This document shows positions 2,656 through 25,477 of a stretch of DNA of 64,000 nucleotides, one piece after another. Location of the stretch: contig NZ_FNFX01000003.1 of the NCBI RefSeq assembly GCF_900100975.1, positions 372,001 through 436,000 on the forward strand. Reading direction: 5' to 3'. Under the pieces are notes generated by a model. It searched no databases and was not told the origin of the DNA. It saw only the letters and a list, made by a program, of their open reading frames with translations. Each line of letters begins with the position of its first letter. Positions within the stretch are counted from its first letter, which is position 1. Source of the stretch: Methylophilus rhizosphaerae. Its GTDB lineage: Bacteria > Pseudomonadota > Gammaproteobacteria > Burkholderiales > Methylophilaceae. Made by a program: the position numbers and the translations under genes.

Positions 2656-3101
2656 AGTGCGTTCACCAGGTTAACCATTTCAATGGCGACCTGCGCAGCT
2701 TCCGCCCCTTTGATGGCCATGCGGGCTTCTGCCTGTTCGTCGTTTTCAGTGGTCAGGATAGCATTGGCGACCGGTACGCCGGTATCGCGTTGCACTTCAG
2801 AGATGCCGCGCGCAGATTCGTTGGCGACCACTTCAAAGTGGTAAGTTTCGCCACGGATAATCGCTCCCAGGGCAATCAGGCCATCATAGGATTCGCTGAG
2901 CGCCATGTGTTGCAAAATCAGGGGGCTTTCCAGCGCACCTGGTACCGTCGCCAGCGTGATATCGTCGGCTTTGACGCCCAGTTTCAACAGTTCCTGTTCA
3001 CAGGCTTGCAGCAGGCCGGCACCGATATTGTCGTTAAAGCGGGAAAGAACGATACCGATTTTTTTGCCGGTACCATCCAGGTTGGGGGAGATTTTGTTCA
3101 C
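2652..3101 (-). CDS. ribH: 6,7-dimethyl-8-ribityllumazine synthase RibH
   Basis: Penultimate enzyme of riboflavin synthesis, condensing 5-amino-6-ribitylaminouracil with 3,4-dihydroxy-2-butanone-4-phosphate; forms icosahedral shells in many bacteria. In 149 residues it has RFN (21-23), VPGALE (53-58), [12 protein letters not shown] with the catalytic His88, and [13 protein letters not shown]. The start is a GTG at 3101 with a weak upstream ribosome site; no better start gives the family N terminus. It heads a ribH-nusB unit. No FMN riboswitch motif is visible in the 140 bp upstream. Confidence 0.95.
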
Positions 3102-3198
3102 TTGGGAATCCGTGGGCTAATACTGAAACCGCTATTTTAACTCAAAACGGCCTGCCCCGCGCCTGAGGGTGCAGAGTCAGCTAAAAGGGGAGGGGGTA

Positions 3199-3234
3199 CA
3201 GGCAAATGAGTGGTTAAAAACCATCATTTGCCTG
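3199..3234. other. Long stable hairpin between the OFA transporter gene and ribH
   Basis: CAGGCAAATG (3199-3208) pairs with CATTTGCCTG (3225-3234), and TGGTT (3211-3215) with AACCA (3219-3223), separated only by a small AG/T internal loop. On the minus strand the loop supplies a run of five T, but no T tract follows the stem. It lies 11 bp past the transporter stop and 97 bp before the ribH start, so a terminator or mRNA 3'-end stabiliser for the transporter transcript is the simplest reading. Confidence 0.5.
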
Positions 3235-3245
3235 CACGGTGCCTG

Positions 3246-4910
3246 TCAGGCAAATAATGCCCAGGCTTTCTGCCCGGTCATGCAGATACCATAAGCAATG
3301 GGGATCAGCACCGCCAGCCAGGCGAACCTGACCAGCCAGTCAGTGCCTTGCGGTGCGCCATTGAGGGGTTTGGCTACCTTGACACTCGCCTCTTTAGGCT
3401 TGCTTGCCGCTTGCTCGGCTGCCAGTTCGGCATCGGTCATAAAGTATTTACTGTCCACCGGCTTCACCAGCAAGTTGGCGATAAATCCGATGCCCAGCAA
3501 TCCTGCCAGAGTCAGAAAGATAGGGCCATAAATGTCAGCGAAAGGGACTTTTGCCTCCAGGCGCATATCATGCATGTAATTGACGATGACTGGCCCCACA
3601 ATACCGGCGGTAGACCAGGCGGTGAGGATGCGGCCGTGAATGGCGCCGACAAACTGCGTGCCAAACAGGTCGGCCAGATAGGCGGGAATGGTCGAAAATC
3701 CCCCGCCGTACATGGAAGCAATCACGCAGAGGACGACCAGGAACAGTCCCAGATGCTGCTGGTTCGCCGCATAGGTTGCCGTGACATACATCAGGGCACC
3801 CAGCACGAAGAATATGAAGTAGGTATTGCGGCGGCCCAGTTTGTCTGACGAAGTGGCCCACCCCAGGCGGCCGAGAATATTGAAGACGGAAACCAGTCCA
3901 ACAAACCCTGCACCCATGGCTGCAGCGGCAACTGTCAAAGACTCATCCGCCTTGATATCGGCAAACCCCAGTGCCGGTTGGCCAACCAGTTGCCCGCCAA
4001 AGGTCTCCTGTAGCATGGGGGCCGCCGCACCAATAATACCAATCGCCGCGGACACATTCATGCAAAGCATTAGCCATAGCAGCCAGAATTGCGGCGTTTT
4101 ATGTGCCTTGTCCAAATGTACATGGCGGTTAACGACCATGCGATGGTGCTGTTGATCTGGCGGTGTCCAGCCTTCCGGTTTCCAGTTGGCTGCCGGAATA
4201 CGGTAACCCAATGAGCCGCAGGTCATGAAAATGGCATAGACGATGGCCAGTACCACGAACGTTTGCCAGACGCCGGGTTCAGTCGGCGTGGCAAACAGGT
4301 TCATCAGTTTTGTCGCCAGCGGCGAGCCTATCATGGCGCCGCCGCCAAATCCCATGATTGCCATGCCGGTTGCCATGCCGCGCCGGTCGGGAAACCACTT
4401 AATCAGGGTGGAAACCGGCGAGATATAGCCGAGGCCGAGGCCGATGCCACCGATGACACCGCTACCCAGCCACATCATCCAGAGCTGGTGGTGGTAAACG
4501 CCCAGCGCTGAAATCAGCAAGCCACCACACCAGCAAAGCATGGAGACCAGGCCGGCTTTGCGCGGACCTGCGCGTTCCAGCCAACCTCCCCACAGTGCTG
4601 CCGAGCAGCCGAGTAATACAAAGAATAAGGTATACATCCAGCCCAGGTCGAACTGGGTCCAGTTGCAATCTGTGGCGAACAGGGCCGTGCCGGTGCCGGC
4701 GATCTTTTCGCTGAACGTGGTTGCCCCTGCGGCGCAGGTTGCGACTGGCGACCCATCCGCATTGGTGAGCGCAGTGCCCAGCGGTTTCCAGAACACGCTG
4801 AAGCCATAGGCCATGCCGATGGATAAATGCACGGCCAGTGCCGCTGGCGGAACCAGCCAGCGGTTAAAGTTCTTGCCTGCTGTGATATGTTCTTTTGATA
4901 AGTTAAACAA
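3246..4910 (-). CDS. OFA-family MFS transporter (oxalate/formate antiporter-like)
   Basis: Twelve-helix major facilitator of the oxalate/formate antiporter family with an extra C-terminal membrane segment. Diagnostic stretches are the MFS motif A (GGWLERAGPRKAG) after helix 2 and the OFA signature around MYGGGFSTIPAYLADLFG ... GAIHGRILTAWSTAG. Start: TTG at 4910 (554 residues), preceded at 9 bp by AGGGG; an upstream TTG at 4964 would add 18 residues without a ribosome site. Substrate cannot be read from sequence: OFA members carry oxalate, formate or other small monocarboxylates. It is divergent from phoB, and the Pho box at 4999-5027 lies between them, so phosphate control is possible. Confidence 0.88.
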   Translation of the reverse strand: MFNLSKEHITAGKNFNRWLVPPAALAVHLSIGMAYGFSVFWKPLGTALTNADGSPVATCAAGATTFSEKIAGTGTALFATDCNWTQFDLGWMYTLFFVLLGCSAALWGGWLERAGPRKAGLVSMLCWCGGLLISALGVYHHQLWMMWLGSGVIGGIGLGLGYISPVSTLIKWFPDRRGMATGMAIMGFGGGAMIGSPLATKLMNLFATPTEPGVWQTFVVLAIVYAIFMTCGSLGYRIPAANWKPEGWTPPDQQHHRMVVNRHVHLDKAHKTPQFWLLWLMLCMNVSAAIGIIGAAAPMLQETFGGQLVGQPALGFADIKADESLTVAAAAMGAGFVGLVSVFNILGRLGWATSSDKLGRRNTYFIFFVLGALMYVTATYAANQQHLGLFLVVLCVIASMYGGGFSTIPAYLADLFGTQFVGAIHGRILTAWSTAGIVGPVIVNYMHDMRLEAKVPFADIYGPIFLTLAGLLGIGFIANLLVKPVDSKYFMTDAELAAEQAASKPKEASVKVAKPLNGAPQGTDWLVRFAWLAVLIPIAYGICMTGQKAWALFA

Positions 4911-23975: not shown

Positions 23976-24203
23976 TCAGGCGGCGCCTAATTGTACCGGT
24001 GTTAACTGGATCAGTTTTTTCACCAGGCCAGGATGTTGTTCTGTGTGTGCTTCTTTCAGGCAGGCTTTGGCACAGCTGGCACATTTGCCGCATTCCGCGC
24101 CAACACCTAATTGTTCTTTCAGGTCCTTCACGGTTTTTGCACCATTTCTCACCGCCTGGTGAACTTGACGCTCAGTGACTGCATTACACACGCAAACGTA
24201 CAT
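23976..24203 (-). CDS. bfd: Bacterioferritin-associated ferredoxin Bfd
   Basis: [2Fe-2S] protein of 75 residues that reduces bacterioferritin haem so that stored Fe(III) can leave as Fe(II). Cluster ligands C4, C6, C38 and C41 match E. coli Bfd (MYVCVCNAVTE and ECGKCASC); two additional Cys (C44, C48) are outside that set. The start follows AGAGAGG. A perfect Fur palindrome lies 21 bp upstream, fitting induction when iron is scarce, and the bacterioferritin genes are next upstream. Confidence 0.95.
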   Translation of the reverse strand: MYVCVCNAVTERQVHQAVRNGAKTVKDLKEQLGVGAECGKCASCAKACLKEAHTEQHPGLVKKLIQLTPVQLGAA

Positions 24204-24223
24204 ATTGCCTCTCTAAAGTTACT

Positions 24224-24242
24224 AATGATAATTATTATCATT
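24224..24242. promoter_or_regulatory. Fur box upstream of bfd
   Basis: AATGATAAT-T-ATTATCATT, a perfect 19-bp palindrome and a near-perfect match to the Fur consensus GATAATGATAATCATTATC. It overlaps the expected bfd promoter, so iron-bound Fur should repress bfd. Confidence 0.93.
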
Positions 24243-24285: not shown

Positions 24286-24307
24286 AAAAAAGCCGCTTTC
24301 GCGGCTT
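24286..24307 (-). terminator. Rho-independent terminator after the bacterioferritin operon
   Basis: On the minus strand AAGCCGC, loop GAAA, GCGGCTT followed by T residues (A run at 24286-24291 on the plus strand). It separates the bfr pair from the Fur-controlled bfd promoter. Confidence 0.88.
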
Positions 24308-24335: not shown

Positions 24336-24812
24336 TTAGTCGGATTCAATCTGGGATTGCAGGTAATTCGGCAAGGTGACGTCTGTAATCAGGCGTTGCT
24401 GGGTCTCCAGCCAGTCTATGGCCTCTTCGCAGGCTTCCAGCAATTCGGTCAGCAGGTCGCGCGTGACATAGTCCTGCAGTTTTTCGGCTTCTGCAATCGC
24501 TTCCACCAGTTGCGGGCGCTGCACCTCTTTTTCAAAGCTGAGGTCACCTTGCAGGCATTCCACTACATCTTCGCCAATCAGTAGCTTGCCAAGGTTTTGC
24601 AGGTTAGGCAGGCCATCCAGGAACAGGATGCGCTCAATCACCTCATCCGCTTCTTTCATGACGCGGATGGATTGTTTGTACTGGTAGTCGTTGAGTCTTT
24701 CCAGGCCCCATTTCCTGAACATGCGCGCATGCAGAAAGTACTGATTGATAGATGTCAGCTGGTTTTTGAGCACCTTGTTCAGTGTGCTGATAATATGTTT
24801 TCCGCCTTTCAT
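24336..24812 (-). CDS. bfr: Bacterioferritin subunit with haem ligand but degenerate ferroxidase centre
   Basis: Ferritin-fold subunit of 158 residues, clearly bacterioferritin ([32 protein letters not shown]). Set against E. coli Bfr, the haem-coordinating Met52 is kept, but the di-iron ligands are largely lost: E18 is Q, E51 is V, H54 is E, E127 is C and H130 is A; only E94 remains. The adjacent paralogue has the reverse pattern. A hetero-oligomer in which this subunit binds haem at the two-fold interface is therefore likely. AAGGAG precedes the ATG by 6 bp, and the gene follows its partner by 9 bp. Confidence 0.9.
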
Positions 24813-24821
24813 AGCAGCTCC

Positions 24822-25313
24822 TTATACGGCTGCCGCCGGGCTGTCGCCCATCTGGCTTTGGCAGTAGTTTTCAATGCCGATCAATTTGATCAGGTTCAGT
24901 TGTTTTTCCAGCCAGTAGGCATGATCCATTTCGGTGTCATCCAGTTGCACCAGCAGCATTTCGCGTGTGACAAAATCCTGCGCCTGTTCGCAGGCTTCGA
25001 TAGCGCTTTTCAGGTGTTTGACCACGGTGTATTCCAGTGCCAGGTCTGATTCCAGCATGGATTTAACGTCTTTGCCGATATGGATAGGATCGCGTTTGGC
25101 GAGGTTGGGTGTGCCTTCCAGGAACAGGATACGCTGAATGAGCGCGCGGGCATGTTCTCTTTCGTGCAGGGATTCGTGCAAGATGTGTTGCGCAATCGTG
25201 CCTAGTCCCATGTCGGCATACATTTCGCCGTGAATCAGGTACTGGTCGGTGGCGGTGAGCTCGCCTGCCAGTAAATCATTCAGAATATCTATAATTTTCT
25301 TATCGCCTCTCAT
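24822..25313 (-). CDS. bfr: Bacterioferritin subunit with intact ferroxidase centre but no haem Met
   Basis: Bacterioferritin of 163 residues and first gene of the pair. All six di-iron ligands are present: E18, E51, H54, E94, and the late ExxH E128/H131 (one-residue insertion relative to E. coli). The haem ligand position 52 is Arg. The sequence around it reads HESLHEREHAR. This subunit should oxidise Fe(II) but cannot ligate haem by Met, complementing the downstream subunit. The ribosome site AGGAG lies 6 bp before the ATG. A 21-bp palindrome (25399-25419) lies upstream. Confidence 0.92.
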   Translation of the reverse strand: MRGDKKIIDILNDLLAGELTATDQYLIHGEMYADMGLGTIAQHILHESLHEREHARALIQRILFLEGTPNLAKRDPIHIGKDVKSMLESDLALEYTVVKHLKSAIEACEQAQDFVTREMLLVQLDDTEMDHAYWLEKQLNLIKLIGIENYCQSQMGDSPAAAV

Positions 25314-25398
25314 TGCCGGCTCCTGTATGCAGTTTTGATGCTGGCTATGATACAGGAAATAGCAAGGAGTGCAATAATAAAATTAATGTAACTTATTG

Positions 25399-25419
25399 AT
25401 TTAAAATGATATTTTAAAT
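25399..25419. promoter_or_regulatory. Perfect 21-bp AT-rich palindrome upstream of the bacterioferritin operon
   Basis: ATTTAAAAT-GAT-ATTTTAAAT, 86 bp upstream of the first bfr start and 59 bp from the sco stop. The composition does not match the Fur consensus. It could be an operator for the bfr promoter or an upstream activating element; no regulator can be named. Confidence 0.45.
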
Positions 25420-25477
25420 AGTAACATAAATGAAAATCGTTCTTGACTACAAGCGCCGGTGACCGGTACAAACGTGT

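Follow-up and report, generated by a model that had tools for sequence, protein, structure and literature searches.

A tandem pair of bacterioferritin genes in Methylophilus rhizosphaerae probably encodes one cage with divided labour

Two adjacent bacterioferritin genes in the window (the whole stretch of 64,000 nucleotides that was analysed) probably encode the two subunits of a single hetero-24-meric bacterioferritin of the tandem type, in which the jobs of the cage are split between a haem-free ferroxidase subunit (HF) and a haem-binding subunit (HB). From the homology to solved and tested hetero-bacterioferritins, which gives good support to the divided hetero-24-mer expected in a preliminary description of this DNA, we put the probability of this reading at roughly 0.88.

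In the proposed cage, the di-iron ferroxidase centres would sit in homodimers of HF, which would also deposit the mineral. Homodimers of HB would hold the bis-Met52 haem together with the docking site for the bacterioferritin-associated ferredoxin, Bfd. When iron is scarce, electrons would pass from the [2Fe-2S] cluster of Bfd to the HB haem, leading to iron release, and bfd is seemingly under its own Fur-controlled promoter. HB would be a haem-bearing, ferroxidase-dead subunit, with a role like that of the mammalian L chain plus haem. To our knowledge, mammalian H/L ferritin has neither haem nor a Bfd route, i.e., the likeness is one of role only.

The gene pair and its active sites

The bfr gene for HF (24822..25313, minus strand, 163 amino acids) was recognised by its open reading frame, residues, profile score and Foldseek match, and the bfr gene for HB (24336..24812, minus strand, 158 amino acids) by its open reading frame, residues and profile score. 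The two genes obtain 156.6 and 212.5 bits with the bacterioferritin profile TIGR00754, for which the curated cut-off is 125.55. They are separated by a 9-nt spacer (24813..24821, minus strand) with a GGAG (TAAGGAGCTGCTATG at 24824-24810) that we take to be a ribosome-binding motif, so both subunits are presumably made from a single mRNA.

In E. coli Bfr numbering, HF has E18, H46, H50, E51, R52, H54 and E94. Thus, the ferroxidase ligands E18, E51, H54 and E94 are retained, and an arginine is found where the haem ligand Met52 is expected. Helix D of HF reads DTEMDH, with E128 and H131 in its own numbering, and is one residue longer than in E. coli. HB has Q18, K46, R50, V51, M52, E54 and E94; E. 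coli positions 127 and 130 are occupied by Cys and Ala (128 and 131 in the numbering of HB). Five of the six ferroxidase ligands of HB are gone, with E94 as the sole survivor, and H46 and D50 are gone too. All residues named in the preliminary description, as well as both open reading frames, agree with this alignment to E. coli Bfr; its site list was right in what it contained but passed over the missing H46/D50 of HB and the helix D insertion of HF. It had also counted the late ExxH pair among the sites kept in HF. The pair is indeed present, but as evidence of activity it is weak, since iron staining was not visibly changed by mutation of E128 and H131 in the Shewanella counterpart of HF (PMC12120770).

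No ferroxidase ligand of HB is restored by a proper alignment. Between HB and E. coli Bfr there are no gaps up to residue 94 and then one extra residue near 99, and HB is 56-60% identical to the Bfr of E. coli and of P. aeruginosa. As HB contains no His after residue 28, a late ExxH is impossible in any register. A misalignment hiding the ligands was therefore dropped.

The structural model of HF (pLDDT 93.6) has SoBfr1 of Shewanella (9iig_A) as its best Foldseek match, with a TMq of 0.93 and an rmsd of 0.6 Å, followed by the Acinetobacter Ftn of 9bts. The model of HB is only moderately confident (pLDDT 71.9, best match PaBfrB at 2.9 Å rmsd), so it is used to confirm the fold and no geometry is argued from it.

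Distribution and selection

In the genome (2.76 Mb, 99.99% complete) no further Bfr genes were found beyond HF and HB, and a homo-bacterioferritin elsewhere that would make the split moot was thus rejected. The third ferritin-domain match of the genome contains the stretch FHWNVTGP and is presumably a Dps-like protein. Among 21 other genomes of the genus, both genes are present in 15 and neither in 6 (some of these are incomplete, 82-99%), while a single gene is found in none. That the two are present or absent together argues that the pairing is not due to chance. Elsewhere in the family, 15 more genomes were covered: both genes occur in two, a lone haem-binding Bfr in one, and the other 12 gave no match at E 1e-10. 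Relatives of HB were also searched for in viral contigs, and none were found.

The HB site pattern QKRVMEECA is identical in 14 of 16 congeners, the window counted in; the two that deviate (L049 and L050) have another residue at position 18, and in one of them 130 is changed as well. The median pairwise dN/dS in 16 congeners is 0.027 for HB (from 95 usable pairs of 120) and 0.048 for HF (from 101 of 120); with synonymous sites almost saturated (median dS > 1), both are rough. These values speak against decaying copies, including a pseudogene in the case of HB, and for purifying selection on both genes.

Relation to known hetero-bacterioferritins

Judged by sequence, HF and HB are a tandem hetero-bacterioferritin, a kind that is already known. 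As in the TD type (PMC12120770), the bfr genes are adjacent on the same strand, one product lacks Met52 but has the ferroxidase ligands, the partner has Met52 and an impaired ferroxidase centre, and the identity between the two is 39%, i.e., not above 45%. The TD type is further marked by a single 24-mer in which homodimers of both subunits are joined, with haem confined to the Met52 subunit and most of the ferroxidase activity in the other, features that are predicted for HF and HB. Split pairs are known in Neisseria and Magnetospirillum according to the preliminary description. For Bfr1/Bfr2 of Magnetospirillum the split is established by experiment, and the same paper cites Neisseria gonorrhoeae and M. 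magnetotacticum as further species with tandem bfr genes (PMC6529640).

In Magnetospirillum gryphiswaldense the haem-free gene comes first, as in the window (PMC12120770), and the division of labour is the same as proposed for the window; its Bfr2 has Q18, as HB does, and has also lost the residues at 54 and 131 (PMC6529640). However, the replacements differ, being A54 and M131 in Bfr2 and E54 and A131 in HB. SoBfr12 of Shewanella (PDB 9IIG), which cryo-EM shows to be a 12+12 cage, is likewise encoded by tandem genes for a haem-free ferroxidase subunit and a Met52 subunit with an impaired centre, and bfd is often found close to the bfr operon (PMC12120770), just as bfd adjoins the bfr pair in the window. 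The gene order in Shewanella is opposite to that of the window, and SoBfr2 keeps E18, H54 and E127 with D51 and V94, whereas HB keeps only E94.

Haem-free and haem dimers also share one 24-mer in Pseudomonas FtnA/BfrB and Acinetobacter Ftn/Bfr (PMC8945002; PDB 9BTS). Bfd of P. aeruginosa docks to the haem dimers alone, as predicted for the cage of the window, but the genes of that species are dispersed and ferroxidase centres are present in both subunit types (PMC8945002). A cage shared by an active and a ferroxidase-dead subunit is also known from mammalian H/L ferritin, a comparison made in PMC12120770. Another heterooligomeric bacterioferritin, PDB 9h1u, has been solved, and its chains are of three different sequences, present in 8, 4 and 12 copies; our literature search found no paper on bacterioferritin 9H1U.

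HF and HB could instead assemble apart from each other into two homo-24-mers, with HF as an iron-storing ferritin free of haem and HB as a bacterioferritin that has haem only and some other task. When alone, Bfr2 of Magnetospirillum is found mainly as oligomers, and each of the two subunits there interacts with itself (PMC6529640), and the low identity of HF and HB would also fit separate cages. However, the genes lie 9 nt apart and are found as a unit in the genus, and both subunits are needed for function in Magnetospirillum and Shewanella (PMC6529640, PMC12120770). We regard separate cages as improbable and prefer a single hetero-24-mer.

Ligand loss in tandem pairs

Loci were taken from a class search (match in 110 of 274 genomes, best 30 matches used), from a search of relatives (match in 30 of 61 genomes, all used) and from a scan of named genomes with the HF alignment (best 80 of 587 kept). 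The extracted loci contain 88 tandem pairs, 29 HB alone and 22 HF alone, where the type was assigned by the higher score to the window HF or HB and not by residue 52, and alone means without a partner inside flanks of 1.5-2.5 kb. The 88 pairs include 16 from the genus of the window and at least one identical couple (L035/L092), and as the sample was drawn by close matches, pairs of other kinds are under-represented.

All 88 paired HF have E18/E51/H54/E94 intact and none has Met52. Met52 is present in all 88 paired HB; the four core ligands are intact in two of these (L008 and L031), and at least two of the four are lost in the other 86. In HB without a tandem partner, the four core ligands are intact in 29/29, with Thr at 127 in seven. 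When six ligands are counted, the paired HB have lost none (2 loci), two (5), three (17), four (39), five (20) or all six (5). The near-complete erosion of HB, earlier singled out as the notable point of the pair, is thus nothing unusual: 86/88 tandem HB partners have lost ligands and 5/88 have lost all six. Ligand loss is the rule for the haem-binding partner among the tandem pairs examined.

Some individual loci deserve mention. L008 and L031, where the haem-binding partner of the tandem pair keeps a complete ferroxidase centre, are possibly younger pairings. L112 (Methylocucumis oryzae, 2501-2983) encodes an HF-type protein with both Met52 and the ferroxidase ligands, the sole Met52 among 110 HF. 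In L073 (Methylophilaceae MAG P-RSF-NP-02, 2996-3358) the HB frame stops early, before helix D, which might reflect faulty assembly or a damaged gene. The genomes of at least three of the 29 intact lone HB (L016, L017 and L018) have a second, weaker Bfr-like match on another stretch, perhaps a dispersed HF. Together with the mixed cage of P. aeruginosa, where both subunits are active, these second matches indicate, against the divided cage proposed here, that a mixed cage need not divide labour.

Because HB keeps E94, with E54 and C128 as further potential metal ligands, residual or other metal binding by HB is possible. Even less probable than separate cages is that these residues form another, rebuilt metal site and that the site is not dead. 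E54 and E94 are kept in all tabulated HB of the window clade, where Cys is also frequent at 127. However, Cys127 is replaced by Ser or Ala in the relatives L051, L067, L053 and L076, K46/R50 put positive charge where H46/D50 stood, and E94 is also lost in many other clades. A ferroxidase-dead HB is the reading that we retain. Among eroded HB in general, positions 46 and 50 often carry Lys46 and Lys or Arg50 in place of His46/Asp50, i.e., the inner iron site has turned from acidic to basic.

Evolution of the split

A first tree was built from 107 HB and rooted with 6 HF, omitting ten congeners and retaining the ligand columns. In it, 75 of the 76 eroded HB fall into one clade with an SH-aLRT of 96, and L090 lies outside. 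When 14 ligand and near-ligand columns were removed and E. coli Bfr was added, erosion required 3 changes (2-4 in bootstrap trees) compared to 32 in shuffles; the starred branches force at least 2 changes, and the bootstrap had not converged. As erosion takes few changes on the tree, the split appears to be old and shared, and to have arisen a few times at most in this sample. E18 is kept in all tabulated window-clade HB outside the genus and also in the congeners L049 and L050, so Q18 looks like a late step, special to the genus of the window.

The HF sequences are split off from five HB and E. coli Bfr by a branch with an SH-aLRT of 100. The genes of L051, from a genome of the same family as the window, and L067 (Methylobacillus rhizosphaerae) are sisters in both trees, with a support of 97 for HB and 100 for HF. 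In the 78 pairs kept for gene order, HF comes first in 25 and HB in 53, and 3 changes of order are needed on the HF tree, which is a quick tree with many forks open. One suggestion is that the haem-free subunit can arise from either of the two copies; the paper that makes it also places haem-free subunits in a distinct clade (PMC12120770). From our trees, which were built without the Magnetospirillum gryphiswaldense sequences, a few order switches within one HF lineage seem to fit better than either copy turning haem-free. This is not a refutation, and the sample is biased against haem-free subunits of independent origin.

Charge reversal at the dimer interface

The least expected part of the pair, and one that is new here, is the reversal of charges at positions 30 and 56, with E30/R56 in HF and R30/D56 in HB. 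Arg30-Asp56 is an inter-chain salt bridge in E. coli Bfr (PMC3728335) as well as in PaFtnA and PaBfrB (PMC12120770). Among 117 HB, D56 is found in 117 and position 30 is Arg in 115 and Lys in 2. E30 occurs in 42 of 110 HF, all 42 with Lys or Arg at 56, while a basic residue at 56 is found in only six of the 68 HF without E30. Five of these six are K30/K56, where a salt bridge does not fit. In the window clade E30 goes with Arg or Lys56 in 31/31 HF (with L087, these make up the tabulated HF group of 32).

On an HF tree built without columns 30 and 56 (210 branches, many weakly supported), 8 of the 9 gains or losses of an acid at 30 share both branch and direction with a gain or loss of a base at 56. 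An independent-pairs test on the starred branches has two pairs only and thus no power to reach significance. Among 11183 column pairs scored by APC-corrected mutual information in 100 HF, 30-56 comes out on top, and in the set of 79 HF that do not belong to the window clade it is second, again of 11183. The predicted helices of the HF model span 5-34 and 38-64, and within one subunit the two positions should lie far apart along the antiparallel helices, so the covariation is best explained by a contact across the dimer. The second strongest covarying pair in the 100 HF is 22/52, occurring as M22/K52, V22/R52, and R22/A52 or T52. Residue 52 is the lost haem ligand, and the old haem pocket may have been repacked in correlated ways.

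We suggest, tentatively and at somewhat less than even odds, that the reversed 30/56 bridge makes the dimer interfaces of HF and HB in this clade orthogonal so that the cage self-sorts into homodimers, and that the reversal arose several times independently in HF. In a mixed dimer, E30 would face D56 and R30 would face R56. This clash would sort the subunits into homodimers before assembly and leave the bis-Met haem site whole, so that no site would be lost to a Met/Arg combination. Sorting does not require the reversal, as SoBfr1 (H30/A56, different from the E30/R56 of HF) and Acinetobacter Ftn (R30/D56) also homodimerise; the reversal may only strengthen it. Salt bridges between dimers are compared in PMC12120770; neither the charge reversal nor the sorting proposal was found in the accessible parts of that paper or in related titles and abstracts. 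Least probable of all are mixed HF-HB dimers with the haem between Met52 and R52: SoBfr1 and SoBfr2 have nearly identical folds, but no heterodimers were seen in SoBfr12 (PMC12120770), the spectra of mixed P. aeruginosa Bfr are bis-Met, and the reversed 30/56 would bring like charges together.

Bfd and regulation

The bfd gene (23976..24203, minus strand, 75 amino acids) obtains 47.5 bits with PF04324 (cut-off 26) and 49.9 bits with PRK10509, below the cut-off of 75 for the latter. It lies 132 bp downstream of the bfr pair, with a predicted terminator in between and a promoter-like site with a Fur-like box of its own; in the TD type, bfd is often a near neighbour that is transcribed apart from the bfr genes (PMC12120770). 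The putative terminator, a hairpin followed by a T tract 3' of the pair (24290..24307, minus strand), comes from a consensus scan that gave 4 such sites in 1.9 kb compared to 2.3 in shuffles, and is weak alone. The promoter-like site, TTGACA-17-AATAAT (24259-24231, minus strand), has 11/12 matches. It is overlapped by a Fur-box-like palindrome (24221..24239, unstranded) with 16/19 matches to what we take to be the Fur consensus, a score found in none of 100 window shuffles. The box 5' of bfd has 2-3 mismatches in 16/16 congeners; in seven other scored window-clade named loci it has 5-9 mismatches in six and 3 in L073. As the box is weak outside the genus and its near kin, Fur control at this site would be limited to these.

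Upstream of bfr, the best match to a Fur box has 7 mismatches, which is equalled in 369 of 1000 shuffles. A possible bfr promoter, TTGCAC-16-TATCAT (25347..25374, minus strand), was found by eye and missed by the consensus scan, and its -10-like part is kept in congeners. An AT-rich block 5' of bfr (25388..25445, minus strand), also noted by eye, is conserved in 16 congeners while the DNA farther upstream is not, and is perhaps a regulator site.

The Bfd-docking residues of Bfr are L68, P69, N70, Q72, L78, L79, G80 and E81 (PMC12261321). HB of the window has L68, P69, N70, Q72, L78, I79, G80 and E81, and HF has T68, A72, H78 and K81. In the 88 paired HB, the docking residues at 68, 69, 70, 72 and 81 are kept in 87, 88, 88, 88 and 86, and in the 88 paired HF Leu68 is found in none and Lys81 in 51. 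As the docking residues are kept in HB, and HF is without Leu68 and mostly without Glu81, iron release should run via HB. In P. aeruginosa, Bfd did not bind FtnA when examined by SPR (PMC8945002).

Conclusions

The eroded ferroxidase centre appears to be widespread and old among haem-binding subunits that stand in tandem with a haem-free partner, and not a local oddity of this pair. It goes together with the loss of the Bfd-docking residues in the haem-free partner. If the charge reversal steers dimer sorting, it would help to explain how haem sites stay intact in mixed ferritin cages, and the 30/56 reversal would then give an easy way to design protein cages of two components.
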